Shown in pieces: positions 3,596 to 22,635 of a DNA stretch of 23,675 nucleotides. The notes beneath the pieces were generated by a model. That model saw only the letters and a list, made by a program, of their open reading frames with translations, ran no database searches and was not told the DNA's origin. The DNA is taken from positions 1 through 23,675 of the IMG/VR virus record IMGVR_UViG_3300017782_000228; one strand, 5' to 3'. The translations under genes and the position numbers were made by a program. The first letter of the stretch is position 1; each line of letters starts with the position of its first letter. Origin of the DNA: a virus.

Positions 3596-4366
3596 ATGAA
3601 AACAATTGTATTAGTAACCGGTGGCTTTGACCCACTACACAGTGGACACATTGCCTATTTCAAAGAAGCAAAGAAGCTCGGCGACAAACTTATTGTTGGC
3701 GTGAATAGTGACGATTGGCTTACACGTAAAAAAGGCAGACCATTTATGCCTTTTGATGAACGTCTTGCAATCATTAGAGAACTAGCAGTCGTAGATGATG
3801 TACTTTCGTTTGATGATAGTGACGATAGTGCGTGTGGTGCAATTTTTAAAGCAATGGCCACAAACGGCGCAGTTAAAATTCTATTTGCAAATGGTGGCGA
3901 TAGAGAACAAACTAATATTCCTGAATACGAAACATACGGTGATCATCCTAATGTAGAATTTGCATTTGGTGTAGGTGGCCAAGATAAAAAGAATTCAAGT
4001 AGTTGGATACTTCAAGAATGGAAAAATCCTAAGACAGAACGTGCTTGGGGCTATTATAGAGTACTTCACGAATACGGTAAAAAAGTTAAAGTAAAAGAAC
4101 TTACTGTAGAGCCAGGTAAAAAACTTAGTATGCAACGTCATCAAGATAGAGCAGAACATTGGTTTGTAGCAAAGGGCGAAGCAAGTGTATATACTATTAA
4201 CAACGCAACAGACTACGAACTTCGTGGCACATTCAAAGAACACAAGTCACTGCACATAGGTAATAAGGAGTGGCATATGTTAGCAAATGAAACAGATAAA
4301 CCGCTTCAAATAGTAGAAATTCAATACGGACGTAATTGTGTTGAAGAGGATATCGAACGCAAATGA
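3596..4366 (+). CDS. Nucleotidyltransferase-cupin fusion (sugar nucleotide enzyme)
   Basis: Two domains are fused in 256 residues. Residues 1-125 are a cytidylyltransferase/HldE-C-like nucleotidyltransferase: GGFDPLHSGH (9-18) holds the HxGH motif, and DKLIVGVNSDDW and VVDDVLSFD follow as in heptose-1-phosphate adenylyltransferases. Residues 150-256 are a cupin like the C-terminal domain of type II mannose-6-phosphate isomerases: WGYYRVL, VEPGKKLSMQRH, then RAEHW and VAKGEA, with H182, E187 and H188 as likely metal ligands. The protein may make a nucleotide-activated sugar and isomerise or epimerise a sugar phosphate. Separate activities are known for the families, but this pairing and its substrate are not determined. 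There is no Shine-Dalgarno, and the promoter-like TATAAATA is almost at the ATG. It heads the first glycan operon and overlaps the next gene by ATGA. Confidence 0.82.
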   Translation: MKTIVLVTGGFDPLHSGHIAYFKEAKKLGDKLIVGVNSDDWLTRKKGRPFMPFDERLAIIRELAVVDDVLSFDDSDDSACGAIFKAMATNGAVKILFANGGDREQTNIPEYETYGDHPNVEFAFGVGGQDKKNSSSWILQEWKNPKTERAWGYYRVLHEYGKKVKVKELTVEPGKKLSMQRHQDRAEHWFVAKGEASVYTINNATDYELRGTFKEHKSLHIGNKEWHMLANETDKPLQIVEIQYGRNCVEEDIERK

Positions 4367-5175
4367 ACGATTGGATATTCTTAAGTAAGGATAATAAAGA
4401 TCCGTATATTAATGAATTTGCAGCAGGTTGTAAATCTAGTACAACCGATGCCAACGACTTTAAGTATGACAGTGAAGATGAACGTCCAATCGTGCTCAGA
4501 GGAATACTTAAAAAGAAAATTATGCACAAGTGTTTTGAAGATAATAGAGATTTCTATTATATGGATACAGGATACTTTGGCAATGAAGTTACAAAAAGCA
4601 ATCCTAACGGTTGGAAGTATTGGCACAGAATTGTTAAAAACGATTTACAACACGGCAATATTATTGAACGACCAGATGACAGATTTAAACAGTTTAAGAA
4701 AGAGTTTGCGCCTTGGAAGAAAAGCGGACGTAAAATTTTAATTGCTGCTCCTGATGAAAAGCCTTGTAAATTCTACGGTATTAATTTGGAAGAGTGGTTG
4801 CACACAACTGTTGCTCAATTAAAAAAATACACTGATCGTCCTATCGAAGTAAGACGCCGAGATAAACAAAGAAGCACACGTTTAACAGATACATTAGAAC
4901 AAGCATTAAACAAAGATGTATTTGCACTAGTTACATTCAACAGCAATGCAGCAACAGAGTCAGTATTTCACGGTATACCTGTGTTTCCACTAGCGCCTGC
5001 AAACTCTGCAATAGCAGTTGGGAGTAAAGATTTAAGTCTAATAGAAACACCTTACTATCCATCAGAAGATAAAAGATATGCTTGGGGTTGTCATTTAGCA
5101 TACGGCCAATATCACGTAAGTGAATTAAGAACAGGCAAGGCCAAAAAACTTTTGGAGGAACAATGGAAAAACTAA
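4363..5175 (+). CDS. Putative GT-B-like glycosyltransferase, paralogue A
   Basis: The first of five related proteins in the window, 270 aa. Family hallmarks are MDTGYFGN (67-74), YWHRIVKN (86-93), a P-D-D-R (104-107), KKYTDRPIEVR (154-164), and NSNAATESVFHGIPVF (193-208). The last block resembles the C-terminal nucleotide-sugar site of capsule-type and CDP-glycerol-type GT-B enzymes, where a Ser/Asn-rich loop and a 'GxPV' strand follow each other. The C-terminus shares a 'hydrophobic-YGQYHVSELRTG-A' ending with the other copies. There are no membrane segments or signal peptide, so it is cytosolic. The start overlaps the previous stop (ATGA) with AGAGGA upstream. Transferase activity and substrate are inference; family membership among the five is seen directly. 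Confidence 0.72.
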   Translation: MNDWIFLSKDNKDPYINEFAAGCKSSTTDANDFKYDSEDERPIVLRGILKKKIMHKCFEDNRDFYYMDTGYFGNEVTKSNPNGWKYWHRIVKNDLQHGNIIERPDDRFKQFKKEFAPWKKSGRKILIAAPDEKPCKFYGINLEEWLHTTVAQLKKYTDRPIEVRRRDKQRSTRLTDTLEQALNKDVFALVTFNSNAATESVFHGIPVFPLAPANSAIAVGSKDLSLIETPYYPSEDKRYAWGCHLAYGQYHVSELRTGKAKKLLEEQWKN

Positions 5176-5852
5176 AAGTATTTGTAGGATATGATCCTAG
5201 AGAAGACATTGCATATCAAGTATGCAAACACAGCATTGAGTCGAGAAGTCCTAATGCAGAAGTAATACCTTTAATACAAAAAGATTTAAGAGAGCAAGGG
5301 TATTATGACAGACCAATTGACAAACTAGCAAGTACAGAATTTACATTTACAAGATTCTTAGTACCTGAACTAAGCAACTTTAATGGCTGGGCAATGTTTA
5401 TGGATTGTGATATGATCCTTACAACAGACATTGCAGAACTATTTGCACAAGCAAATGACGACTATGCTTTAATGTGTGTAAAGCACGACTATACACCTAA
5501 AGCAGGTATTAAAATGGACGGACAAGCACAAACTGTGTATCCACGTAAAAATTGGTCAAGTGTAATGCTTTTTAATTGTAGTCATCCAAGCAATCAAGAT
5601 ATTAACGTACAACTTGTTAATGATCCAACAGTTACAGGAAAATATTTACATAGATTTAGTTGGCTTGACGATAAAGAAATTGGAGAACTAAGTCCGGAGT
5701 GGAATTGGTTAGTAGGTTGGTATAAAGAACCACAAGACGGAACTCCAAAACTGTTACACTATACAGAAGGCGGTCCTTGGTTTGAAAACTACAGACACTG
5801 TCAATATAATCAACTATGGAAAAAAGAACTAAGTGAGATGATGAATGGATGA
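5163..5852 (+). CDS. GT8-like (GT-A fold) glycosyltransferase
   Basis: The 229 residues begin KLKVFVGYDPREDIAYQVC, continue with STEFTFTRFLVPEL, and reach the metal-binding DxD, MDCDM (DCD at 81-83). This is the order of GT8 and related retaining transferases that use UDP-sugars and Mn2+. A late LLHYTEGGPWF segment fits the second half of the donor site. It probably acts in the cytosol or on a membrane-attached acceptor. The start is decided by GGAGG about six bases before ATG, inside the end of paralogue A (13-base overlap). It sits between paralogues A and B, so it is likely part of one glycan-building series. The sugar donor and acceptor are unknown. Confidence 0.82.
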   Translation: MEKLKVFVGYDPREDIAYQVCKHSIESRSPNAEVIPLIQKDLREQGYYDRPIDKLASTEFTFTRFLVPELSNFNGWAMFMDCDMILTTDIAELFAQANDDYALMCVKHDYTPKAGIKMDGQAQTVYPRKNWSSVMLFNCSHPSNQDINVQLVNDPTVTGKYLHRFSWLDDKEIGELSPEWNWLVGWYKEPQDGTPKLLHYTEGGPWFENYRHCQYNQLWKKELSEMMNG

Positions 5853-6624
5853 AACACTAGGACTTGAAGAATCATTAGTAAAAGGTAGCAACAACCGTCT
5901 TACGTTAGATGCTAACGATACTACTAAGCCGCAAGTTATACGTGGTGTAATCAAAGACCATCATCGAAATAATGCACAAGCGATTGGAAGAGATTATTGG
6001 TATATTGATACAGGTTACTTTGGAAACTTTCCTAGTGCTGGTAACAAGAAAGGCCAAAAGAAGTGGCACCGTGTTGTTAAAAATGAAAATCAACAAGTTG
6101 ACATTGTAGATGTTCCATCAGACCGTTGGGAAAGATTAGTTAATGACGATCCAAGACTAGTTTGGAAAGGATGGAAAGATTACGATAAAAAAATACTGTT
6201 AGTAATGCCTAATCCAAAAGCCTGTAAATGGTATAACATCAATTACGATAAATGGGTTACTGATACACAAGAACAAATTGCCAAATACAGCGACTTGCCA
6301 GTTGAAGTACGTATAAAAGGATCACGCAGAGAACGTAATGCAGGCTATACAATATATGATGCATTTGATAGTGGTGTTTATGCTACTGTTGCAATGAATA
6401 GTATGGCTGCACTAGAATCAGTTCTATACGGTATTCCTGCTTTTGTAAGTGTTCCGTGTGCTGCTAGTCCTTTAGCATCAATGGACTTATCACAACTAGC
6501 AAATCCAGTTAAACCTAAATTTAAACACATAGAAAGGCATTGTAAGAATCTTGCATACACACAATTTACTATTGAAGAAATACAAAGTGGTATTGCATAT
6601 AAACTTACTGAACAATATCGATGA
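5845..6624 (+). CDS. Putative GT-B-like glycosyltransferase, paralogue B
   Basis: 259 aa, closest in layout to paralogue A: IDTGYFGN (54-61), KWHRVVKN (73-80), P-S-D-R (91-94), AKYSDLPVEVR (146-156), and NSMAALESVLYGIPAF (185-200). The 'TDRP' of the other copies reads SDLP here, and NSNAA reads NSMAA. It overlaps the GT8-like gene by 8 bases and the next paralogue by ATGA, so expression is translationally coupled. Its N-terminal 28 residues are unlike the other copies. The function is inferred as for A, with a different donor or acceptor likely. Confidence 0.7.
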   Translation: MDETLGLEESLVKGSNNRLTLDANDTTKPQVIRGVIKDHHRNNAQAIGRDYWYIDTGYFGNFPSAGNKKGQKKWHRVVKNENQQVDIVDVPSDRWERLVNDDPRLVWKGWKDYDKKILLVMPNPKACKWYNINYDKWVTDTQEQIAKYSDLPVEVRIKGSRRERNAGYTIYDAFDSGVYATVAMNSMAALESVLYGIPAFVSVPCAASPLASMDLSQLANPVKPKFKHIERHCKNLAYTQFTIEEIQSGIAYKLTEQYR

Positions 6625-7736
6625 AACTACTTTTAAATGACAAAGAAATAGCAAACTACTTACTGCACACTATCGGTGTGCCAGCAGGACTGTATAAATT
6701 AAGACCAACTGACAGAAATGCTGCCGAATGTGTACAGGCTTTCCTAAAGCGCAAAAACAAAGTCCGTGAATGGAATATGAATCCAGAAGTTGCAAGAGCA
6801 GAGAAGAAAAAGTTTGCAAATAAACTAAAAAAAGCAGTTGCTAACGATTTAACTGATTATCGTAATGCTGTGAAGCAAGAAAAATTTAATTTACGTAATG
6901 CATACTTTAATACTATTCATAAAGAGATAGAAACACTAATAGAGCATTTCGGCGAAGACAATATTCTTAAAAAATATAAAAAAAGCGATGTTACAGAGTT
7001 TGTAAAAGGCTGCGGACTTAACTTAGACCCTAAAGGGCAGTTAATGCGTAGACATAAGTTCACTAGTTACACAGAAGATTGTGTAATTAGAAATACTGTT
7101 GGTAATGAAGAATTATTAGTTAATAAAATAGACAATAATCACCCTATGTGGTTTATTGACAGCGGATATACAAACTTTTTAGAACAAAATAAGAAATGGC
7201 ATAGACTAGTACGCAACCATTTACATTACGGAGAGTTTTTTCAAGCACCTGCAGATAGATTAGGCAACTTTAAAACGTTTCCTAAGCCTTGGAGAGAAGA
7301 CGGCGAGATAATCTACGTAATTGAGCCAGGACCATTTGCTGCAAGTGTATTTCATTGCGATTTAAAGACTTGGAAATATGATGTAGCAAGAGAGTTACGT
7401 CAGTATACTGACAAGCGCATTAAATTTAGATCCAAAGCACCTAAAAGACAACGCACAAACTTATATAAAGAACTAGCAGACGATGATTATTGCTGTGTTG
7501 TCAGTATTAATAGTAATGCTGCTACAGAAGCAATTTGGCAAGGTGTACCAGCCATTACATTAGGCGCACACGTAACTAATCCAGTAACTGTAGACAAACT
7601 AAGTGACATAAACAACCTATATAGGGGTCCATTAGGCGAATGGTTATGTATGTTAAGTTACCAACAGTTTACTAAGGAAGAAATTGTAACAGGAACAGCA
7701 GGGAACTTGGTTAAAAAGTATACGGTCAATGAGTAA
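6621..7736 (+). CDS. Putative GT-B-like glycosyltransferase with helical N-terminal extension, paralogue C
   Basis: 371 aa. Residues 150-371 match paralogues A and B: FIDSGYTNF (178-186), KWHRLVRN (192-199), P-A-D-R (210-213), RQYTDKRIKFR (260-270), and NSNAATEAIWQGVPA (297-311). Residues 1-150 are an extra Lys/Glu/Asn-rich, mostly helical domain (for example ARAEKKKFANKLKKAVAND). It has no recognised fold and may bind the acceptor or a partner. The coupled start is ATGA. The extension is encoded in the same reading frame with no sign of a frameshift. The glycosyltransferase role is inferred from the shared family motifs. Confidence 0.7.
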   Translation: MKLLLNDKEIANYLLHTIGVPAGLYKLRPTDRNAAECVQAFLKRKNKVREWNMNPEVARAEKKKFANKLKKAVANDLTDYRNAVKQEKFNLRNAYFNTIHKEIETLIEHFGEDNILKKYKKSDVTEFVKGCGLNLDPKGQLMRRHKFTSYTEDCVIRNTVGNEELLVNKIDNNHPMWFIDSGYTNFLEQNKKWHRLVRNHLHYGEFFQAPADRLGNFKTFPKPWREDGEIIYVIEPGPFAASVFHCDLKTWKYDVARELRQYTDKRIKFRSKAPKRQRTNLYKELADDDYCCVVSINSNAATEAIWQGVPAITLGAHVTNPVTVDKLSDINNLYRGPLGEWLCMLSYQQFTKEEIVTGTAGNLVKKYTVNE

Positions 7737-8652
7737 GAGAACAGCAGTAGCATATTTTGCTGGCATTCCGCCACAAAATAACAATCCAGAGAAACCATTA
7801 ATACTAAAAAACTTTATCGAAGGTGTAAATGCCGCTGGAGACACTGGTATTTCACATCAAGGCTTTAATGTTCTTGAGTGTGACGTTGCATTTATACAAG
7901 GTTTTGTACACGAACACGGAAAAACATCGCCGCATTTACTATTACGCAGAAACGCAGTAGAAAAACAAAAACAAGTGGGCAAACGGTCACTAATTGTTGA
8001 TAGTAACTTGTTTTTATATGCAGATCAAGGTAATACAAAAACATATCTGCGTTACAGTTTCGATGGAGTCTTTCCTACTACAGGATTTTACTTTGATAAG
8101 GATATTGATCCTGCAAGATGGAAAAAAATTAGTGCAGAACTTAATTTACCACTTAAAAATTACAGAAAAGATGGCAAACATATCTTAGTTTGCTTACAAC
8201 GTAACGGTGGATGGTCAATGAAAGGCATTCCTGTAATGCAATGGCTAACTGATACTATTAGAGAAATTAAAAAACACACTGACAGACCAATTGTAGTAAG
8301 AGCGCACCCAGGTGATAAAAAAGCAAGAAGATATTTGCATATTAATGAGCCAAATGTGTTTGTATCCTGGGCACCAAACATACGAAATGACTTACTTAAT
8401 GCTTGGGCAACTGTAGTTTACAATAGTTCCCCTAGTGTAGCAAGTTTAATTGAAGGAGTACCTGTATTTGTTACAGATACTGACCCAAGTGTAAGCCAAG
8501 TTAATGGAGTTTGCAATACAAACTTAAAAAGACTAGAAGATCCAAAAATGTATGACAGACAAGAGTGGATAGAAAGACTATCAATGTGTCATTGGAACTT
8601 TAACGAACTAAAAAGTGGTGAAGCCTGGTCTTTTTTTAGGAGATACATATGA
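7729..8652 (+). CDS. Putative GT-B-like glycosyltransferase, paralogue D (capsule-type HP motif)
   Basis: 307 aa. It belongs to a second branch of the local family, with paralogue E. It has KGIPVMQWLTDTI (165-177), KKHTDRPIVVRAHPGD (181-196), YNSSPSVASLIEGVPVFV (231-248) and the shared C-terminal WNFNELKSG-A. The R-x-HP and the Ser-rich loop with 'GVPVF' resemble the C-terminal halves of capsule-synthesis transferases of the KpsC/KpsS type. The N-terminal half (1-150), with AGIPPQNNNPEKPLILKNFI, fits a first Rossmann-like domain. It lacks the D-x-GYFGN/KWHR block of A-C. It overlaps C by 8 bases and ends by ATGA into the methyltransferase gene. Substrate unknown. Confidence 0.72.
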   Translation: MSKRTAVAYFAGIPPQNNNPEKPLILKNFIEGVNAAGDTGISHQGFNVLECDVAFIQGFVHEHGKTSPHLLLRRNAVEKQKQVGKRSLIVDSNLFLYADQGNTKTYLRYSFDGVFPTTGFYFDKDIDPARWKKISAELNLPLKNYRKDGKHILVCLQRNGGWSMKGIPVMQWLTDTIREIKKHTDRPIVVRAHPGDKKARRYLHINEPNVFVSWAPNIRNDLLNAWATVVYNSSPSVASLIEGVPVFVTDTDPSVSQVNGVCNTNLKRLEDPKMYDRQEWIERLSMCHWNFNELKSGEAWSFFRRYI

Positions 8653-9401
8653 GAAAACTAGCCAATGGATGGCACGTACCTGAAGGTGATACAAAAATGA
8701 CAAGACATATCGAAACAGATAAGTCACCGTCACTTGCAGAGTATGAGCAAAAGCAAAGAAAAACAATTTTAGAACATATTCCGCAAAAAAATACTTTTGT
8801 TGACGTAGGTGCTAACGTTGGTGTATGGAGTATGACACTACAACAACATTTTAAGCACGTTGTAAGTTATGAGCCAAGCAAACGTAATGTAGAATGCCTC
8901 GAGAATAATGTTCAAGGCAAGACAGAAATTAGAAATACTGCACTTTCCGACTTCAATGGCGAATCACAGTTTCACGATGAAATTAAAAATTGCGGAAACA
9001 GTAAATTATGGGCAGAATCATCACAGACTGGGTTATACAAAGTACCCGTAAGAAAATTAGACGATGAAAATATTGAAAATATTTCACTAATTAAAATGGA
9101 TGTTCAAGGATATGAATGGCAAGTTATACAAGGCGCACAAAATGTTATAGAGACACAACAACCTTGGATAGCATTTGAAGTAAGTGCTGATGTAGACGTA
9201 ATTTGCAAGTTTTTAGAAGATAGAAATTACGATATGATTGATAATAAGAGTAAACGTATTCTTATCTATGCACCGAAATCAGGAATCAATGCACCTACAC
9301 AAAATGCATTTGGTAGACGTATGGGTCCTGGACCTTATGTGTTACTATTACCTGAAGATAAACAACAAATTGCAGCAGCACGCCACGGAAATTTATCGTA
9401 A
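8649..9401 (+). CDS. FkbM-family SAM-dependent methyltransferase
   Basis: FkbM-type enzymes O-methylate sugars and other small molecules using S-adenosylmethionine. The 250 residues show SAM motif I FVDVGANVGVWS (50-61), an acidic end of strand 2 (VVSYEPSKRNVECLENN), and the family's late motif LIKMDVQGYEWQVIQGA with WIAFEVS. A TAGGAG lies seven bases before ATG; the gene overlaps paralogue D (ATGA) and closes the first glycan operon. Its stop overlaps the convergent glycosyltransferase gene by 9 bases. A sugar hydroxyl on the operon's glycan is the likely target, by context only. Confidence 0.88.
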   Translation: MRKLANGWHVPEGDTKMTRHIETDKSPSLAEYEQKQRKTILEHIPQKNTFVDVGANVGVWSMTLQQHFKHVVSYEPSKRNVECLENNVQGKTEIRNTALSDFNGESQFHDEIKNCGNSKLWAESSQTGLYKVPVRKLDDENIENISLIKMDVQGYEWQVIQGAQNVIETQQPWIAFEVSADVDVICKFLEDRNYDMIDNKSKRILIYAPKSGINAPTQNAFGRRMGPGPYVLLLPEDKQQIAAARHGNLS

Positions 9402-10238
9402 TTGATTTTGCCAGTAAGGCTCAGTACGCATAATTTTTAAATCATCACGCTTACTATGTCCTAATTGTTTTCTACCACCTTTAAGATGATCTAAGTATGC
9501 ACCCCATTCACAATTAATTAATGGATGCCCTTCCCCTGTACTCATTCCAGGTCTTGGCCTAAGATCTCCAAGGTTAGATGACCAACTGTGTGACGGCATT
9601 TTTGGAAACTTCCTTCTAACTTCATCAAATACAAAACTATCGTGCCATTCTGCCATTGTAAAGATTCCGTTTTCTGCTTCATCGTATACACGCTGGAATT
9701 CACCAAGGAATCTTTTAATACTTTTTGTACCTAACTTCATTGCATACAGTCCACATTCACTATATTTGCCTCTACGCCCTAAGTAAAACAATTCAGACGG
9801 TGCCGGAAGCAATCGTTGTATATCAGCGTGAGTAATTTTTGAGTGACAAATTGTATCAGCATCCATCCACATCAAATATTCTGTATTGCATTCTTTAGCA
9901 CAAGCAAAGATACTATAAGCTTTGTGTGCAAAGCGAACAGCGTGCCATTTAAAACCTTTGCCACTGTCTCTTCTTCTAGATCTAATTGGATCAGCAGATA
10001 CATCGCCATTTGCTTTGGGTACATTTTTCCATTTATCTTTAAATGCAACAAGTTCAGGACTTGCTTGATGTAAATCTTTAACAATTAAATTATCTGCTGT
10101 TTCTTCTACTATGCAATCTTCAGCATATACATATAAATTAATATCTGCAGGCCAGTTTTCTAAGAAAGTCTTAATCATTCTTTTGCCGTATGTATCGTAA
10201 CCTGCTTTGTGAAATGTTGTAACTATACTGATATTCAT
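9393..10238 (-). CDS. GT-A-like glycosyltransferase, copy 1
   Basis: 281 aa on the minus strand. It begins MNISIVTTFHKAGYDTYGKR, followed by VRFAHKAYSIFAC (101-113) and a DxD metal site YLMWMDADT (DAD at 126-128). Then LGRRGKYSECGLYAMKLG matches the region after DxD in copy 2 at 15791. The pattern 'F-(W/Y)-x2-(V/K)-RFAHK-(A/S)-Y' before the DxD is shared by both copies and is a good fingerprint of this subfamily. An Arg-rich insert (PIRSRRRDSGKG) is unique to this copy. No transmembrane segment is seen. Its start overlaps the stop of the upstream minus-strand gene (TGA inside the ATG region), so the two are coupled. Donor and acceptor are unknown. Confidence 0.76.
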   Translation of the reverse strand: MNISIVTTFHKAGYDTYGKRMIKTFLENWPADINLYVYAEDCIVEETADNLIVKDLHQASPELVAFKDKWKNVPKANGDVSADPIRSRRRDSGKGFKWHAVRFAHKAYSIFACAKECNTEYLMWMDADTICHSKITHADIQRLLPAPSELFYLGRRGKYSECGLYAMKLGTKSIKRFLGEFQRVYDEAENGIFTMAEWHDSFVFDEVRRKFPKMPSHSWSSNLGDLRPRPGMSTGEGHPLINCEWGAYLDHLKGGRKQLGHSKRDDLKIMRTEPYWQNQLR

Positions 10239-10636
10239 TTAATTTTGTCCCATATATGATATTTGTCGCCTTGTACTAAACAATTATAATTAGCCGCATA
10301 AAGTGCAACACTTCTGTCTCTTCCAATAACTTCTTTACCTTCGACTATAACTTCAGGACCTGGATTATGGTATAACGGTGATATTAAATCCAACGCCTTA
10401 ATGTGTTCAAGGTCAACAAATACTGCCGACACTGATGACAACGCATACAAAGTTTTCATTTCTCTTCTATATACTACTTTTTTGTCTTTAACATACATTC
10501 CTGTTCTACTGTGTATAAAAACAGTATCAAACATTTCGATAATAGAAGGTAATAAGTTCATTCCTGAGCCTATTACAATTGCATCTTTAGGAGTATGCAG
10601 TAAAGTTTTTTGTAATCTTTTGGTATGTTTTTTCAT
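10235..10636 (-). CDS. Unknown protein, Rossmann-like N-terminus
   Basis: 133 aa, first gene of a two-gene minus-strand unit with the GT-A-like gene (4-base overlap). It contains AIVIGSGMNLLPSIIE followed by TVFIHSRTG and VSAVFVDLEHIKALDLI, an alternation of strands and helices that suggests a small alpha/beta nucleotide- or SAM-like fold. No catalytic motif is recognised. I do not know the family. Coupling to a glycosyltransferase suggests a role in the same glycan pathway (inference). No clear Shine-Dalgarno precedes its ATG. Confidence 0.7.
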   Translation of the reverse strand: MKKHTKRLQKTLLHTPKDAIVIGSGMNLLPSIIEMFDTVFIHSRTGMYVKDKKVVYRREMKTLYALSSVSAVFVDLEHIKALDLISPLYHNPGPEVIVEGKEVIGRDRSVALYAANYNCLVQGDKYHIWDKIK

Positions 10637-10655
10637 TGGCTAATTTACTTTAATA

Positions 10656-10709
10656 TATTTAAGTAATTTGTCCATTCTGCACAAAATTATTGGCTACTGT
10701 ACTTAAATA
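10656..10709. promoter_or_regulatory. Divergent promoter candidate: inverted TACTTAAATA pair
   Basis: The 79-base divergent gap contains a perfect 10-base inverted repeat: TATTTAAGTA (10656-10665) and TACTTAAATA (10700-10709). Each strand thus carries TACTTAAATA ahead of its own gene, 19 bases before the minus ATG and 6 bases before the plus ATG. The core (TTAAATA) is two changes from the T4 late element TATAAATA, and no -35 hexamer is evident. A late-type bidirectional promoter is the likeliest reading. Confidence 0.45.
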
Positions 10710-10715
10710 CTACTG

Positions 10716-11576
10716 ATGCGTTTTAAGTTATATAGACAACACGGTGCGTTAAACAGTCCTAGTATTTTTGATGCATTTCAGACAGGACTAATAGCACAAG
10801 GACACAAAGTCGTAAATGACAACGAAGATGTTGCTGTCATTTGGTCAGTATTGTGGAACGGCCGTATGTCTGCTAACCAACAAATTTATGAAAAATGTCG
10901 GAAAGATAACAAGCCTATAATTATTATTGAAGTAGGCAACTTAAAAAGAAATACAACTTGGCGCATATGTCTTAATCATATTAATGGATTAGGAGAGTTT
11001 GGTAGTGACGCCGACTTAGATGTAAACAGACCTAAAAAATTAGGTTTACAAATGTCGCCACCTAATACAAATAGACGTAACGAAATCCTTATTGCAACAC
11101 AACATCATAAAAGTTTGCAATGGCAAGGAATGCCGTCAATGGCTGAATGGACATTACAAACTATAGAAAAAATTAAAAAATATACAGATCGTCCTATTGT
11201 TATTAGGCCGCATCCAAGGTCACCTATGTCTGGCATCGAACACGAATTTACAAATGTAAAAAGACAACAACCTGTAAAATTATCTGGAACATACGACAAC
11301 TTTGATATCGATTATAACTATCACGCTGTTGTTAATCATAATAGTGGACCTCCTATACTTGCTGCTATTGCAGGCACTCCAGTAATTACAGGCGACAGCA
11401 GTCTTGCATATCCTGTTAGTGATACTATAGAAAACATTGACAATCCTAAACTTCCTGATGATAGACTTTTATGGTTTACAAAACTTACGCATTGTGAATG
11501 GACTGTTGACGAAATAAAACAAGGCACTCCGATAAAAAGATTAGAAAAGTTTATAAAAATGCAAGTAAGTTATTGA
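10716..11576 (+). CDS. Putative GT-B-like glycosyltransferase, paralogue E
   Basis: 286 aa, the fifth copy, separated from the others by the minus-strand pair. It pairs with D: WQGMPSMAEWTLQTI (136-150), KKYTDRPIVIRPHPRSP (154-170), NHNSGPPILAAIAGTPVIT (207-225), and a C-terminal CEWTVDEIKQGTP. The conserved R-x-HP and the NS-rich loop with 'GTPV' match capsule-type transferases. The N-terminal half starts FKLYRQHGALNSPSIF and includes a strand DVAVIWSVLW, consistent with a first Rossmann domain. No Shine-Dalgarno is visible; a TTAAATA element ends six bases before the ATG. It is a single-gene unit followed by a separate sigma70 promoter. Confidence 0.7.
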   Translation: MRFKLYRQHGALNSPSIFDAFQTGLIAQGHKVVNDNEDVAVIWSVLWNGRMSANQQIYEKCRKDNKPIIIIEVGNLKRNTTWRICLNHINGLGEFGSDADLDVNRPKKLGLQMSPPNTNRRNEILIATQHHKSLQWQGMPSMAEWTLQTIEKIKKYTDRPIVIRPHPRSPMSGIEHEFTNVKRQQPVKLSGTYDNFDIDYNYHAVVNHNSGPPILAAIAGTPVITGDSSLAYPVSDTIENIDNPKLPDDRLLWFTKLTHCEWTVDEIKQGTPIKRLEKFIKMQVSY

Positions 11577-11607: not shown

Positions 11608-12783
11608 ATGACACATTTAACTTACATAGAAGATCTATTCCTCAAGGTTATGGACATTATGGACCAGAACCTATTAGGTATGCAACATCACGATCAGTCT
11701 GCTGCTAGAAGTTTTTATAACAGTATTAGTGCAGGAAAAGATTTAACTGAAAAACAAGGTGCATATATTTTAAAGATTATTTACAAATATAGAAATAGTG
11801 TAAGGCCGTTTATCGAGGTTGAACCTTATCTAGATCATCCTCTGTGGAGTAAACCCTTTAGAGTTGTTGACCTAGCAAAAGAAGTGTGGGTAGAACAAGA
11901 TACTATCAAGACACCATTGATATGTCTTAAATTTCCATACAGTCTAAAAGATGACTTTGAAAATGTGTTCAGACCAAAGATTGAAAAAGGTCATTACTGG
12001 AACGCTGATAGACGTATTAGACAAATTAATCTTTACAAAGCAAATGTTGTAGAGATAGAAGAATGGTGTGTGAATAACGAATTTACTATTGACGATACAT
12101 TTACAAGTTGCGTTGACCAAATAGAAGAAATATGGCAAGAGCGTTCTACATACGAACCACATAGTATTGTAGACGAAGGCGAAGTACAACTTGTAAATTG
12201 TAGCGAAGATACAGAAACATACTTTCTTAAAAAGTCAAATGGTAATATTGTTAATGATATGTTCCTTGCAAAAAGTATGGGATATCCGCTTCTTAATCCT
12301 GATAGATCTCTTGCACAACAAATAAGCAGTAACCGAGATAACACGTTTTGGATAAAAAATGTAGATGAGTTTTTAGAGTTAGGATATCAAGTAAACGGTC
12401 AAATTGTTATACTATTAGATAGAGCAGCAGATGCATTAGACTATATGAAAGAGTTAAAAAACACAATAGATTACTACAAATATAACACAAATGACTTTAG
12501 AGTTTGCTTTAGAACCAATAACAAAGACAATCCAGAATTTAATGTTTGGGTACGTGATAACAAGTTTGGAGGAAAAATAGATGGTGCAAAGTTTCTAATC
12601 TTCCAACATAAGCCACCTAAGTGGTTGTTCAAACAGAAGAATGATGTTATAATAGTGGCTACTAATAACTTAATGCCTTCTACGTATGGCTTGACTAGAG
12701 ATATGTTAGAGTCAAGTCCTATTGTATTTTACGTAGGAGAAATTGAACCAAGTAAAGGACGAAAGAAGATTGTCGAACTGTAA
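11608..12783 (+). CDS. Unknown protein upstream of uvsW (391 aa)
   Basis: This soluble 391-residue protein has no P-loop or other catalytic motif that I recognise. The N-terminal quarter includes LTEKQGAYILKIIYKYRNSV. The middle, HYWNADRRIRQINLYKANVVEIEEWC, resembles the small substrate-recognition segments that precede helicase cores. The C-terminal half has alternating strands (GQIVILLDRAADALDYMKEL, FRVCFRTNN, DVIIVATNNL). Its 3' end overlaps uvsW by 14 bases, so the two are translationally coupled and probably work together in DNA branch processing (inference). No Shine-Dalgarno precedes ATG 11608, and the promoter's -10 ends six bases upstream, so the mRNA may be leaderless. An internal ATG at 11650 with a weak AAGG is the alternative start. 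A degenerate helicase-related fold is possible but unproven. Confidence 0.78.
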   Translation: MTHLTYIEDLFLKVMDIMDQNLLGMQHHDQSAARSFYNSISAGKDLTEKQGAYILKIIYKYRNSVRPFIEVEPYLDHPLWSKPFRVVDLAKEVWVEQDTIKTPLICLKFPYSLKDDFENVFRPKIEKGHYWNADRRIRQINLYKANVVEIEEWCVNNEFTIDDTFTSCVDQIEEIWQERSTYEPHSIVDEGEVQLVNCSEDTETYFLKKSNGNIVNDMFLAKSMGYPLLNPDRSLAQQISSNRDNTFWIKNVDEFLELGYQVNGQIVILLDRAADALDYMKELKNTIDYYKYNTNDFRVCFRTNNKDNPEFNVWVRDNKFGGKIDGAKFLIFQHKPPKWLFKQKNDVIIVATNNLMPSTYGLTRDMLESSPIVFYVGEIEPSKGRKKIVEL

Positions 12784-14781: not shown

Positions 14782-15141
14782 ATGACTATGAAAGCAGGAA
14801 AGATTTGGGGTCAGACAGAATTGATCCACGCAAACGGTGTGCTAGAATTTCATCGTATCGAATACAAAAAAGGTTTCAAATGTTCGGAACACGAACATCA
14901 ATATAAGTGGAATGGCTTTTTTGTAGAGTCGGGTAAGATGATTGTCCGTGTGTGGCAAGACGCTGATCAAGCAGGTCTTGTTGATGAAACTATCTTAGGG
15001 CCAGGCGAGTTTACACAAGTTAAGCCAGGCAAGATACATCAATTTGAAGGTGTTGAAGATGGTGTTGCATTTGAATTGTATTGGGCAGAGTTCAATCACG
15101 ATGATATTGTAAGACGTACAGTTGGCACAAAAATCAAATGA
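14782..15141 (+). CDS. Single-domain cupin, sugar-phosphate isomerase-like
   Basis: 119 aa with one cupin barrel. Motif 1 is HEHQYKWNGFFVESGKM (HEH at about 36-38, the metal-binding His pair), and motif 2 is PGEFTQVKPGKIHQF (second His site). Cupins of this size act as sugar-nucleotide isomerases, epimerases or dTDP/GDP-sugar modifying enzymes, or as carbohydrate sensors. It heads the second glycan operon, behind AAGGAAGG before ATG, and ends in ATGA with the FkbM gene. It differs from the fused cupin at 3596 in having no RxHxxRAEH block. The substrate may be the GDP-deoxysugar made by the dehydratase in the same operon (inference). Confidence 0.82.
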   Translation: MTMKAGKIWGQTELIHANGVLEFHRIEYKKGFKCSEHEHQYKWNGFFVESGKMIVRVWQDADQAGLVDETILGPGEFTQVKPGKIHQFEGVEDGVAFELYWAEFNHDDIVRRTVGTKIK

Positions 15142-15794
15142 CCAATCCGACCATTGAAGGATTACAGAAGTTAAAACAGTACATTCCGCAAGATAATATT
15201 AAGTGTCTTGACGTTGGTGCTAATATCGGACAATGGGTCAATGCAATTAGAGAAGTATATTCCGCACCTGATATTTTTAGTATCGAAGTAAATCCTCACT
15301 GCGAAGGTCGCCTTGCTAGTAAGCAAGTAAAATATAAAATTATAGGACTATCTGATAAAGTTGGGCAGATGGAACTAAAAACATTTGCAACGAAACCTAG
15401 ATCGAAAGGTGCAAGTTTTTATACACAATCTGATTGGCGTGACAAGGAAATTATGAAATTTGAAGTTCCAGTGTCAACACTAGATGTATTGTTTCCAGAA
15501 CAAACATTTGATATACTTAAGATTGATGTACAAGGTGCAGAGCTAGATGTTATTAATGGCGGCATTGAATTCTTAAAAAGACATCAGTATGTCCTTGCTG
15601 AAGTTGCTCTAACAGATTATAATAGCGGTGCACCGCAAGCAAGTGTTGTAGTTGCTAGACTTCAAGAACTTGGTTTCTACGTTGTAGATTGTTTAGAAGA
15701 ACATTTGTACGGCGATAAAATTATACAGATTGATTTGCTTTTTAGTTCTAAAGAAACAAAACACAATAAGAAAGTTTTAGGAAAATATGTATGA
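15138..15794 (+). CDS. FkbM-family SAM-dependent methyltransferase, second copy
   Basis: 218 aa with SAM motif I CLDVGANIGQW (23-33), strand 2 acidic residue IFSIEVNPHCEG, and FkbM late motifs TFDILKIDVQGAELDVINGG and VLAEVAL. It keeps the family order of the 8649 gene but shares only the family motifs, so the two are old duplicates or separate acquisitions. ATGA-type overlap at both ends couples it to the cupin and the following GT-A-like gene. The likely role is O-methylation of a sugar in the glycan built by this operon, by context. Confidence 0.88.
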   Translation: MTNPTIEGLQKLKQYIPQDNIKCLDVGANIGQWVNAIREVYSAPDIFSIEVNPHCEGRLASKQVKYKIIGLSDKVGQMELKTFATKPRSKGASFYTQSDWRDKEIMKFEVPVSTLDVLFPEQTFDILKIDVQGAELDVINGGIEFLKRHQYVLAEVALTDYNSGAPQASVVVARLQELGFYVVDCLEEHLYGDKIIQIDLLFSSKETKHNKKVLGKYV

Positions 15795-16492
15795 TAGGAA
15801 TTGTAACTACATTTAGTGATGCAAACTTTAGTGAGTATGCACATCAATTTATTAATAGTGCAAGGCAATATGTACATCACGACATTAAAATGTATCTATA
15901 TGTTGATAATGCAAGACCAGAACTTGCAAAGAATATGCAAACACTAGGACTAGAAGAATCTAATCCGCAACTAACACAGTTTAAACAAAGACACAAAGAT
16001 AAAGACGAATCAAATTTTATGTACGGAGGCAAACGCTTTGCACATAAAAGTTATGCAATCTGTCACGCAGCATTAAATAGTGATGTAGAAAAACTGTTTT
16101 GGTTTGATGCAGATACTGTATTTCAACAAGCAATTACACCTGAATATCTTAACAAGTTTTTACCTAATGGCACATTCACTTGCTATTTAGGCAGACCTGG
16201 TAGATATACTGAAACAGGATTTATCGGATATAACTTAAAAGATCCTGCCTGTGTAGAGTTTATGGAAACGTATATTAGTTACTACAACGAAGATAAAATT
16301 TATGATTTACCGTTTCAAACTGATTGCCACGTATACGATGCAACCAGAGAACAAATGGTAGCACAAAATAAAATTAAAGCAACTGACCTTACACCAGGGA
16401 TGGGTAAAAGTAATTTTAACTTTATTCATAAAGGCTTTGCAGTACATAACAAAGGTGAACATAAACTTGGTAAAACCAAGAGGAAAAAATGA
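15791..16492 (+). CDS. GT-A-like glycosyltransferase, copy 2
   Basis: 233 aa. It is clearly related to the minus-strand copy at 9393: both start with a short VTTF strand, share RFAHK(S/A)Y, the DxD block WFDADT (DAD 106-108), and LGRPGRYTETGFIGYNL after it. It lacks copy 1's Arg-rich insert and part of its C-terminus. The DxD implies a metal-dependent nucleotide-sugar transferase. It directly follows an FkbM gene, repeating the FkbM/GT-A neighbourhood at 8649-10238. Start ATGA and end ATGA overlaps show tight coupling. The donor may be the GDP-deoxysugar of the next gene (inference). Confidence 0.78.
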   Translation: MIGIVTTFSDANFSEYAHQFINSARQYVHHDIKMYLYVDNARPELAKNMQTLGLEESNPQLTQFKQRHKDKDESNFMYGGKRFAHKSYAICHAALNSDVEKLFWFDADTVFQQAITPEYLNKFLPNGTFTCYLGRPGRYTETGFIGYNLKDPACVEFMETYISYYNEDKIYDLPFQTDCHVYDATREQMVAQNKIKATDLTPGMGKSNFNFIHKGFAVHNKGEHKLGKTKRKK

Positions 16493-17466
16493 TGAGTAAA
16501 ACAGCGTTTATTACAGGAATGACAGGACAAGATGGTCCTTATCTTGCTAAATTTTTATTAGAAAAAGATTACAAAGTCTATGGACTTGTAAAAAGATATA
16601 GCAATCCTAATTTTGATAATATGGATTTTTTAGGTGTAACTGATAAAATTGAATTAATTACAGGTGATATTACAGACGAAAACTGTATGAATCATCTTAT
16701 GAAATCACTAAAACCAAATGAAGTTTATAACCTTGCAGCACAAAGTTTTGTTGGTGCAAGTTGGGATCTTAATAAACTAACTACTGAAGTTAATTCAATA
16801 GGTCCATTAAATATTTTAAACGCTATTAAGAACAACACGCCCGATACACGTTATTACCAAGCAAGTACAAGTGAACTATACGGCAATGCTAATACAGAAG
16901 GTTTACAAGACGAAGACACACCATTCAAACCTAGATCACCTTATGGTGTAAGCAAACTATATGCATACTGGATGACTGTTAATTTTAGAGAAAGTTATAG
17001 TTTACACGCATCTAACGGTATCCTGTTTAATCACGAATCACCTATTAGAGGTATTGAATTTGTAACACGCAAGATTACTGACGGTGTTGCTAAAATTAAA
17101 CTAGGACTTGCTAAAGATATTACATTAGGTAATTTGAAAGCAAAACGTGATTGGGGATTTGCTGGAGACTACGTTGAAGCAATGTGGGCAATGGTACAAA
17201 AAGATGAACCAGGCGACTATGTTATTGCAACTGGTAAAGAATACAGTATCGGCGATGTATTAGATATTGCTTTTCAACACGTAGGTATTAATGACTATCT
17301 AAGTTTAGTTAAAAGCGATCCTAGATTCAAACGTCCAGCAGAGTTACACGCATTACGTGGTAATCCGCAAAAAGCAATAGATGAACTAGATTGGAATCCA
17401 CAAAAAACTACATTCGAACAAATGATTAAAGATATGGTAGATGCCGATTTAGAAAGGTTATCGTAA
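16489..17466 (+). CDS. gmd: GDP-mannose 4,6-dehydratase
   Basis: Gmd converts GDP-D-mannose to GDP-4-keto-6-deoxymannose, the entry to GDP-fucose, rhamnose, perosamine and related sugars. The 325 residues have the NAD(P) loop TGMTGQDG (9-16), NLAAQSFVGAS (81-91) and STSELYG with T127/E129. The catalytic pair is Tyr152-x3-Lys156 in SPYGVSK. The GDP-binding segment FNHESPIRG follows, differing by one residue from the usual NHESPRRG. The length is slightly below the usual 340-370. No partner reductase (fcl), perosamine synthase or epimerase is recognised in the window, so the keto-sugar must be finished by host enzymes, another phage gene, or one of the unassigned proteins. It lies mid-operon, overlapping both neighbours. 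Confidence 0.94.
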   Translation: MMSKTAFITGMTGQDGPYLAKFLLEKDYKVYGLVKRYSNPNFDNMDFLGVTDKIELITGDITDENCMNHLMKSLKPNEVYNLAAQSFVGASWDLNKLTTEVNSIGPLNILNAIKNNTPDTRYYQASTSELYGNANTEGLQDEDTPFKPRSPYGVSKLYAYWMTVNFRESYSLHASNGILFNHESPIRGIEFVTRKITDGVAKIKLGLAKDITLGNLKAKRDWGFAGDYVEAMWAMVQKDEPGDYVIATGKEYSIGDVLDIAFQHVGINDYLSLVKSDPRFKRPAELHALRGNPQKAIDELDWNPQKTTFEQMIKDMVDADLERLS

Positions 17467-18200
17467 TGCAATTTCCATATCACTACGGTGTAAAAAATCT
17501 TGAACCATTACCTTACGAACGCTTAGGATTTGCACAGCACGGCGAAACAGGCATTATCGAAACAATGACTGATGCTATTAAAAACAAAACTAAAACTTTT
17601 TTTGAAATTGGTTTTAGTAGCGGTGCAATGAATATGACTAGAGATTTGTTTACTAAAGACTGGAGTGGTGTTGGAGTTGATATGTTTGACAAGCCGTCAG
17701 ATAAACTAGGCCCGTTACCACAAGTTAAGTATATCAAATGTAAAGCAGAACCAGATAACTTAATAGACATACTACAAGAAGTTGACATACAAGTTGACTT
17801 TTTTAGTTTAGACATTGACAGTTACGATTACGATATAGCCAACAAACTATTATCGTTAGGCTGGCAACCAAAGACAGTTTGTTTAGAGTTCAATCCTAAG
17901 TTTGGTCCAACTGCTCACGCAAGTTTTCCTTTTGCTGTTGGAAAGAAACTGTTTAACAAAAAAGGTTTATATGGTTCTAGTTTAGCAAAGTATATTGATT
18001 TATGGACATCACACGGATACAAGTACTTCGGATTTGACAGCACACTTACTAACGTATTCTTTTATCATCCAGACACTGTAAATGATCTGAGTAGTTTAAA
18101 AATATATCAACCTCAAGATCTTCCGTTTGCAAACGATGAAATTATGCGTACTATGATCAAGATGCATTCTGTTTGGGAAATTGGAGATATTTGGAAGTAA
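17466..18200 (+). CDS. FkbM-like methyltransferase-fold protein, third
   Basis: 244 aa with FFEIGFSSGAMNM (45-57) in the place of SAM motif I, DWSGVGVDMFDKP for strand 2, and DFFSLDIDSYDYDI in the FkbM late-motif place, then VCLEFNPKFGP. The glycine loop (EIGFSSGA) is looser than the usual DVGANxG, so it may bind SAM differently or use another cofactor. It closes the second glycan operon, joined to gmd by TAATG. It may methylate the same glycan; loss of activity is possible. The C-terminus (DEIMRTMIKMHSVW) has no known match. Confidence 0.72.
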   Translation: MQFPYHYGVKNLEPLPYERLGFAQHGETGIIETMTDAIKNKTKTFFEIGFSSGAMNMTRDLFTKDWSGVGVDMFDKPSDKLGPLPQVKYIKCKAEPDNLIDILQEVDIQVDFFSLDIDSYDYDIANKLLSLGWQPKTVCLEFNPKFGPTAHASFPFAVGKKLFNKKGLYGSSLAKYIDLWTSHGYKYFGFDSTLTNVFFYHPDTVNDLSSLKIYQPQDLPFANDEIMRTMIKMHSVWEIGDIWK

Positions 18201-20379: not shown

Positions 20380-20555
20380 ACACAAGAAAACTTAAAGACG
20401 GAACGGAAGTACAAGAACTTGACAAAAGTATACAATTAAGTATACTAACTAAGTGTCCTGGTAAATGGAAAATAGTTGATATGGAAACAGGACAAGAGTA
20501 TGTTGCTAGTGGCGACTATGAAATGTACAAACAATGGAAAGAAATTAAAAACTAA
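20376..20555 (+). CDS. Small protein (59 aa), GTG start
   Basis: A compact open frame fills the space between the zinc-finger gene and the DnaE-like gene: GTG at 20376-20378 overlaps the previous TGA (GTGA), and TAA at 20553-20555 overlaps the next ATG (TAATG). The product begins MNTRKLKDGTEV and contains CPGKWKIVDMETGQEYVA, ending YKQWKEIKN. The two-sided start/stop overlap and protein-like composition argue that it is real and translationally coupled. No family is recognised; the beta-strand-like middle suggests a small nucleic-acid or protein-binding domain. Confidence 0.72.
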   Translation: MNTRKLKDGTEVQELDKSIQLSILTKCPGKWKIVDMETGQEYVASGDYEMYKQWKEIKN

Positions 20556-21133
20556 TGCCAGATATTGATATAGACTTTAAGGATCGAGAGAAAGCACTTG
20601 CGTTATTCAAGCACGTAAGAGCAAGTCGTATTGATGATGGCGAACTAACAAAGCATAACACTGGCGTATATATGCACGAGGTTCCGACAGATCCAAGTAA
20701 ATACATATGTTCAATAGAACACAAAGAAGCAGAAGAACAAGGTCTATTCAAGATAGATTTTTTAAATGTTTCCTTGTATAATGATATTAAAAACGAAGAA
20801 CATCTAGTCAAACTTACAGAAAAGGAACCGTTATGGGAATTACTCACCGAGCCAGACTTCAGCAACAAATTATTTCACGTAGGAGAACACAGTGGAGTTC
20901 TCAAAACAATGAAACCACAAACAGTGGAACAGTTAGCAGCAGTACTGGCAATGATACGCCCAGCGAAGAGACATCTGATTGGACAGCCGTGGGATACGGT
21001 GATGAGTCAAGTGTGGACGAAGCCAACTAACGGTGAATACTACTTTAAAAAATCACACGCAACAGCATATGCAGTTGCAGTTGTTGTTAATATGAATTTA
21101 ATATGTGAGCAATATAATGAATTGGGAAGTTGA
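20555..21133 (+). CDS. Miniature C-family DNA polymerase (DnaE)-like protein
   Basis: 192 aa collinear with the active-site blocks of bacterial DNA polymerase III alpha (about 1,160 aa). It starts at MPDIDIDF (DnaE MPDFDVDF: catalytic Asp pair, here D3 and D5). HNTGVYMHEVP is in place of the KHAGGVVIAP block, and GLFKIDFLNV matches GLVKFDFLGL with the third catalytic Asp at D68. EHSGVLKTMKP and EQLAAVLAMIRP match the RGM/LFRPGP region, and FKKSHATAYAV matches FNKSHSAAYAL. All intervening fingers, PHP, OB and beta-clamp regions are missing. The three acids are kept, so it is not simply a dead remnant. T4-like phages replicate with a B-family polymerase, so the job here may be repair, terminal synthesis, or interference with host DnaE. 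The start codon coincides with motif I. Confidence 0.78.
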   Translation: MPDIDIDFKDREKALALFKHVRASRIDDGELTKHNTGVYMHEVPTDPSKYICSIEHKEAEEQGLFKIDFLNVSLYNDIKNEEHLVKLTEKEPLWELLTEPDFSNKLFHVGEHSGVLKTMKPQTVEQLAAVLAMIRPAKRHLIGQPWDTVMSQVWTKPTNGEYYFKKSHATAYAVAVVVNMNLICEQYNELGS

Positions 21134-21711: not shown

Positions 21712-21822
21712 TAGTAAAGGTTTAGTAATCACATTATGCAATTAACTACAATATATTTATACCCAAACGTAGTCCAGGCCTATACAGAAATGGCTAGTGC
21801 TTACACACAGGAGAGATTTAGT

Positions 21823-22635
21823 ATGGTCTATAGCCGCGCAATAAAAATTTATCGAGCAACCGATAATAGAATAGATCTTCAAGTTAAAAAAGGAGATCAA
21901 AAGAAAATTAATTTAACAGGATCCACGGTAGTGTTTTCGTTAGTGAGCAGAGAGGACAGCGAACTTGTTCTTAAGAAAGATGCAACTGCTGACGATGCTG
22001 CACTAGGAAGATTTTATGTCATTCTTACTGAAGAAGAAATGCGTGATATAGAACCCGGACAGTATTCATACAGTTTTATCAAAGAAACTAGAGAAGAAGT
22101 TACGACAGGACAACATAAAGTTACTTCTTCATATCCGTTGTACTTAGATAGTCAGTACGGTGCTGAAGGAACAATAGAAGTAAATGGCGATGTATACGGA
22201 GAACCATACGACACTATTGAAGTTATTACGTTTAATAAAACTGTTAACTTCGACAAAACAACAACTAGTCGAGATGACGATCCACCGTTCGAAACTCCAA
22301 GACCTAACTATGCTAGACATACTCCGATTAGCGGCTATGAAGAGTTTTTTGAAAGCAGCATTATTGATGCACAAGGTAATCAATCAACACCATCAAGTCT
22401 ACACACTTTCCAAGTGTATGCAGATTCATACGAAGGCGAACTTAAATTGCAAGCAAGTTTAGACCCAGGTGCAGTACCAATTGATGAAAATTGGATAGAC
22501 ATAAAAACTTGGAATCTAACAGCAGCAGATGGTAATTTTTACCATAATGTAACTGGAAAGTACAATTGGTTTAGATTTAAGCACATAACAGCAGATAATA
22601 ACACAGGAACAGTTGACAAAATACTGTATAGATAG
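21823..22635 (+). CDS. Phage structural protein, baseplate/fibre (BppU-like N-terminus)
   Basis: 270 aa from ATG 21823, which has AGGAGAG seven bases upstream; an ATG at 21736 in frame lacks an RBS. The N-terminal 95 residues (IKIYRATDNRIDLQVKKGD, INLTGSTVVFSLV, and EEEMRDIEPGQYSYSF) read like the BppU/DUF2479 domain of baseplate upper proteins, a beta domain that begins virion adsorption proteins. The C-terminus (SSLHTFQVYADSYEG, KLQASLDPGAVP, WIDIKTW, WFRFKHITADN) resembles a discoidin-like beta sandwich often used for carbohydrate contact. A role in host binding or fibre attachment is likely. The start chosen removes 29 residues of unlikely sequence. It is followed by the primase promoter inside its last codons. 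Confidence 0.72.
   Translation: MVYSRAIKIYRATDNRIDLQVKKGDQKKINLTGSTVVFSLVSREDSELVLKKDATADDAALGRFYVILTEEEMRDIEPGQYSYSFIKETREEVTTGQHKVTSSYPLYLDSQYGAEGTIEVNGDVYGEPYDTIEVITFNKTVNFDKTTTSRDDDPPFETPRPNYARHTPISGYEEFFESSIIDAQGNQSTPSSLHTFQVYADSYEGELKLQASLDPGAVPIDENWIDIKTWNLTAADGNFYHNVTGKYNWFRFKHITADNNTGTVDKILYR

Follow-up and report, generated by a model that had tools for sequence, protein, structure and literature searches.

Five predicted KpsC-fold paralogues lacking the catalytic aspartate in a glycan module of T4-like aquatic phages

The window analyzed here is a complete IMG/VR virus record of 23,675 bases, encoding homologues of the T4-like proteins gp32, UvsX, UvsY and UvsW and of a primase. 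It also contains five related genes, all on the plus strand, here called A (4363..5175), B (5845..6624), C (6621..7736), D (7729..8652) and E (10716..11576), as placed by an earlier sequence-only reading that had proposed a GT-B-like family expanded within one operon. We consider it probable that A-E, five paralogues of ancient origin, share the fold of the capsule enzyme KpsC and form part of a glycan module conserved among T4-like aquatic phages, and that they serve as sugar transferases that do not form a covalent intermediate, the activity being predicted. A sequence identical to gene A (100%) is found together with all five genes in 92-kb and 32-kb viral contigs (L002 and L075).

The proteins comprise 270 (A), 259 (B), 371 (C), 307 (D) and 286 (E) amino acids and form one homologous family, with all ten pairs related in blastp (E 4e-52 to 2e-4). 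A and B are 37% identical (E 4e-52), followed by A-C (8e-30), B-C (8e-23), D-E (5e-23) and A-E (5e-15), with C-D the weakest (2e-4). Smith-Waterman scores of the pairs lie 7-70 standard deviations over shuffled sequence, and the five-way alignment holds 17 invariant columns. The shared block noticed in the earlier reading is real (TDRPIEVR, SDLPVEVR, TDKRIKFR, TDRPIVVR and TDRPIVIR in A to E), as are the NS followed by G-x-P and the C-terminal E(I/L)-x-x-G. Other motifs required adjustment: D(T/S)GY and WHR-x-V-(K/R)-N are found in all of A-C, but the proposed KWHR reads YWHR in A, and RxHP is common to D and E, while the helix of D reads WLTDTI. The division into an A/B/C and a D/E branch is recovered at 98% in the Shimodaira-Hasegawa-like approximate likelihood ratio test (179-row tree) and at 96/85 in a 63-row mixture-model tree. 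C additionally carries an N-terminal extension of ~120-160 residues that is rich in charged residues, probably helical and absent from the paralogues, yet present clade-wide (clade C median 364 residues).

Family databases offered little guidance. A-E gave no credible match in Pfam, PHROGs or NCBIfam, the KpsC/KpsS family Capsule_synth (PF05159) had nothing above its cut-off in the window, and a scan of 83 relatives returned weak GT-B-type matches only, such as DUF6716 and DUF354. AlphaFold2 models, built on alignments of phage homologues, covered A and E, the fold of B, C and D following by homology. Both models scored high, with a predicted local distance difference test score of 95.6 and a predicted template modelling (TM) score of 0.91 for A, and 96.8 and 0.92 for E. 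Foldseek against the PDB retrieved exclusively KpsC, WbbB or KrkA among the top 15 matches of A and the top 28 of E (best E 3.9e-5 and 1.3e-7, respectively). A second aligner, VIA, yielded Z-scores of 11.8 (A) and 13.6 (E) to the same group, with the next, unrelated groups at ~9.4. A-E are hence predicted to possess the fold of the retaining beta-3-deoxy-D-manno-oct-2-ulosonic acid (Kdo) transferases KpsC (GT107), WbbB (GT99) and KrkA (GT140), a modified GT-B group, which sharpens the GT-B-like assignment made from sequence.

Sequence comparison is congruent with the models. A profile of the D/E side found WbbB as the sole match among all PDB sequences, marginal on its own (E 0.045), across the stretch from RXHP to NS...G. 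A D/E profile could also be aligned to KpsC over 168 columns (probability 81%), where Q corresponds to Q156, RXHP to KVHP and the conserved acid to E66. The marginal WbbB match, the KpsC profile alignment and the fold searches agree. The whole-family profile had no match among PDB sequences. Divergence of this magnitude has a precedent in KrkA, the third group of this fold, which displays negligible sequence similarity to the others (PMC12887879).

The active site sets the phage proteins apart from these enzymes. In KpsC, WbbB and KrkA, the aspartate of a QXXXD motif forms a covalent adduct with the sugar, and (K/R)XHP binds cytidine monophosphate (CMP) (PMC10148158, PMC12887879). This nucleophilic aspartate is missing from all of A-E. 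Where KpsC reads QTFND-MSVTYG and QVEDD-ASIKTG, and a sister group of phage proteins QLPGD-ASLRG, the aligned segments are QRNGG-WSMKG in D, with glycine at the nucleophile position, QHHKS-LQWQG in E, PDEKP-CKFYG in A, PNPKA-CKWYN in B and PGPFA-ASVFH in C. D and E retain the glutamine, RXHP (RAHP in D, RPHP in E) and the serine; across their clades the histidine is present in all members and the proline in nearly all. The motif is absent in A, B and C, where HP gives way to a basic residue and other residues and the glutamine to proline. These three keep the arginine, the serine and a glutamate near the ribose site, the last occupying the KrkA ribose-binding position in 93 of 93 sequences. 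An Asp/Glu that the profile aligns to the KpsC general base Glu66 is preserved in nearly all members: among 179, the acid occurs in ~174, the glutamine in 70, and an aspartate at Q+4 in 4, all outside the A-E clades proper. The replacing residues are fixed by clade (proline in 41/41 of A, serine in 29/29 of E, glycine in 37/37 of D), which argues for a new role rather than decay.

The likeness to KpsC, an enzyme of group 2 capsules, spans the predicted fold over nearly the whole of A and E, the acid that the profile places near Glu66, the phosphate-site serine and, in D and E, (K/R)XHP with the glutamine. A-E differ in lacking the QXXXD aspartate, in being single-module, in having no sequence family match and in residing in a phage module without the kps export system. 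The N-terminal domain of WbbB has the same fold, but its nucleophile Asp232 has no counterpart in A-E; likewise, the N-terminal module of KrkA keeps Gln189 and Asp193 of QXXXD (PMC12887879), whereas A-E have no such aspartate.

The complete motif set does exist in related phage proteins. This QXXXD sister group (L074:5940-6971, L062:8776-9765 and others) belongs to the same family as A-E by tree and operon; used as query, it yielded 51 loci, and 186 non-redundant members were classed by motif state. Full Glu, Gln, Asp, RXHP and Ser are kept by 33, while 71 have Gln and HP without the Asp and 82 are without HP. Aspartate at Q+4 is confined to the 33 intact members, a group apart from A-E that, unlike these, retains the covalent nucleophile. 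Motif states track the 186-row tree, with 3 changes against a mean of 80.8 for shuffled labels. A profile of the group against PDB sequences returned nothing but a chance centrin match. At many loci, the interval between A and D, filled by B and C in the phage of the window, holds the intact gene, which neither the window nor the 92-kb contig with the same genes contains. Strict exclusion does not hold, with 38 loci having B/C only, 28 the QXXXD gene only, 10 both and 17 neither (loci being fragments and not independent), and the intact gene in the place of B/C is a tendency, not a rule. With KpsC-like enzymes as outside reference for these unrooted trees, the intact state would most simply be ancestral.

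The paralogues appear to be old. In the 179-row tree, A, B, C, D and E fall into five separate clades, each together with its orthologues from other phages, and the 186-row and mixture-model trees agree on this; the duplications therefore predate this phage lineage. A sister relationship of A and B is probable. D groups with the QXXXD proteins in the 186-row tree (94), while the mixture-model tree leaves the branching order of D, E and the QXXXD group unsettled. Since D and E are as near to the QXXXD proteins as to each other, a single local burst is not indicated. The initial idea of tandem duplication and divergence in one operon thus stands as far as old paralogues are concerned, but not as a recent local expansion, because the copies group with orthologues of other phages; what looks like one is, judging from the trees, an old state. 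All five genes are under purifying selection, with ratios of nonsynonymous to synonymous substitution of 0.07-0.15.

Given that none of the five retains the QXXXD aspartate, we propose that A-E transfer sugars from nucleotide donors by a route other than a covalent Asp-Kdo intermediate. The conserved acid at the Glu66 position could activate the acceptor, as needed for direct transfer, whether inverting or by internal return. D and E probably bind a cytidine nucleotide, as RXHP and the serine are kept, and A-C probably use another donor or an altered site, as proline replaces the glutamine and HP is lost. Their product would be a glycan specified by the phage and carried by the host surface or by virion proteins. 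As the earlier reading suggested, differing donors or acceptors might let one phage add several linkages. Several points weigh against this proposal. The Foldseek TM-scores are moderate (0.46-0.51) and the root-mean-square deviations high. A-C align to KpsC with weak HHalign support, so that their link to it rests on homology to D/E and the fold of A. The alignment of E permits a two-residue gap at QXXXD, with neither register exhibiting a conserved acid. Finally, no CMP-sugar synthetase (PF02348) was detected in 21 phage records, several of them incomplete, and a cytidine donor would therefore have to stem from the host or from the rfaE-like nucleotidyltransferase of the module.

Alternatively, A-E could be ordinary retaining Kdo-type transferases with a relocated nucleophile and host CMP-Kdo as donor. 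The shared predicted fold, the RXHP and serine of D and E, the acid near the KpsC general base and the same-operon relatives with a full QXXXD set would all fit. Nevertheless, we regard this as improbable, as none of the five has the adduct-forming aspartate of KpsC, WbbB and KrkA (PMC10148158, PMC12887879), its replacement being uniform by clade, and A-C have lost the glutamine and HP as well. Loss of the nucleophile, and in A-C of HP, could also mean that catalysis has been given up in some or all of the proteins, which as GT-B pseudoenzymes would bind glycans or act as chaperones alongside the module's GT-A enzymes. Proteins of this type, Asp1 for example, are among the weaker structural matches, and pairing with a GT8 gene is constant. 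Against such a role, which we deem unlikely, the phosphate-site NS and the conserved acid remain, the A-C glutamate at the KrkA ribose position is invariant, and the fixed substitutions look like adaptation to a new function.

The location among recombination genes of a T4-like phage, combined with a GT-B-related fold, also brings to mind glycosylation of phage DNA, analogous to the T4 alpha- and beta-glucosyltransferases acting on hydroxymethylcytosine. Yet PF00303 (thymidylate synthase/deoxycytidine monophosphate hydroxymethylase) was found in 0 of 13 related records, several of which are incomplete contigs, making DNA glucosylation unlikely. Moreover, the structural matches are capsule enzymes, and the neighbors FkbM, rfaE-like, gmd and GT8 are typical of surface glycans; taken together, we judge this explanation very remote.

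The genomic surroundings were assessed over 80 loci, kept from a five-way profile scan of viral contigs that identified 496 relatives, with mostly 2 to 6 family copies each. The order across loci is rfaE/cupin fusion, GT8, A, (B, C), D, (FkbM), opposite-strand glycosyltransferase, E and orf11608, positioned between gp32-uvsX-uvsY and uvsW, with GT8 often preceding A. The first module gene (3596..4366, plus strand; 77/80 loci) encodes a fusion of an rfaE-domain-II-like nucleotidyltransferase (HSGH) with a mannose-6-phosphate-isomerase-type cupin. A GT8-type (GT-A) glycosyltransferase (5163..5852, plus strand) is an equally conserved partner (77/80 loci), and directly adjoins family members also in Pelagibacter phage Mosig and Caulobacter giant phages. 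An FkbM-family methyltransferase (8649..9401, plus strand; 36/80 loci) follows D. On the minus strand lie a probable GT-A glycosyltransferase (9393..10238) with a weak Glycos_transf_2 match and a small conserved gene with no family assigned (10235..10636; 29/80 loci). E is situated ~2 kb past D, beyond one plus-strand and two minus-strand genes; of the overlaps of 4-8 nucleotides reported at the same time, that of A with the GT8 gene measures 13, and the others are as given. Downstream, orf11608 (11608-12783) encodes a conserved protein of 391 residues with no family match, is present in at least 34/80 loci and overlaps the start of the uvsW-like gene by 41 nucleotides at its end. With regard to promoters, sigma-70-like sites were rarer than in shuffled sequences, and TATAAATA was no more frequent than expected by chance.

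A second glycan-type cluster (14782..18200, plus strand) comprises a cupin, FkbM, the glycosyltransferase gene at 15791, a GDP-mannose 4,6-dehydratase-like gene and orf17466. The glycosyltransferase at 15791 is homologous to that at 9393-10238 (E 7e-27), and we infer that the cluster may serve the same pathway as the A-E module. Neighbors of the same kinds, namely rfaE and GT8 genes of lipopolysaccharide type, are known from pelagimyophages, where they were read as tools for modification of the host O-chain (PMC7029224); no mention of the A-E family was found in the text of that work. Elsewhere in the window, a 192-residue open reading frame (20555-21133) shows a weak match to the finger domain of the bacterial DNA polymerase III alpha subunit (E 0.04, below cut-off), and a protein with a BppU N-terminal domain is encoded within the replication region (21736-22635). 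The BppU domain is a baseplate or receptor-binding part in other phages.

Named carriers of the family are Pelagibacter phage Mosig, a group of Caulobacter giant phages and one spring-water podovirus. The Caulobacter phages harbor a tandem pair (L087 6964-8642, L088 6982-8663), with RXHP kept by only one member of each, the pair being immediately preceded by tail genes and followed by a GT8 homologue and lysis genes. Gene D is interrupted in one locus (L003 7831-8752), where two overlapping open reading frames stand in its place through a frameshift or an assembly error; L004 and L005, which are nearly identical, have the gene undivided. Among bacterial and archaeal genomes, the D/E alignment recovered one 4.7-kb contig of a metagenome-assembled genome, perhaps viral, and no cellular source at that sensitivity; the family therefore looks phage-borne. 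A cyanophage origin is without support, no member of the psbA/psbD family being present in 13 related phage records. Regarding the target of the glycan, the module neighbors suit either the host surface or the virion, and the position by the tail genes in the Caulobacter phages leans towards a virion or adsorption role.

Few glycosyltransferases are known to operate through a covalent intermediate, KpsC, WbbB and KrkA being among them. We tentatively suggest that A-E, and A-C especially, may represent new glycosyltransferase families derived from a Kdo transferase of the double-displacement type, whose covalent nucleophile was lost while mechanism and donor both changed, with the intact form persisting at the same operon place in sister phages. 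As forms with and without the nucleophile coexist in otherwise similar operons, such a change of transferase mechanism is directly testable. The findings also provide a likely function for hypothetical proteins encountered repeatedly in Mosig, in Caulobacter giant phages and, within the recombination region, in many aquatic phages of the T4-like type, and they point towards a phage-encoded glycan.

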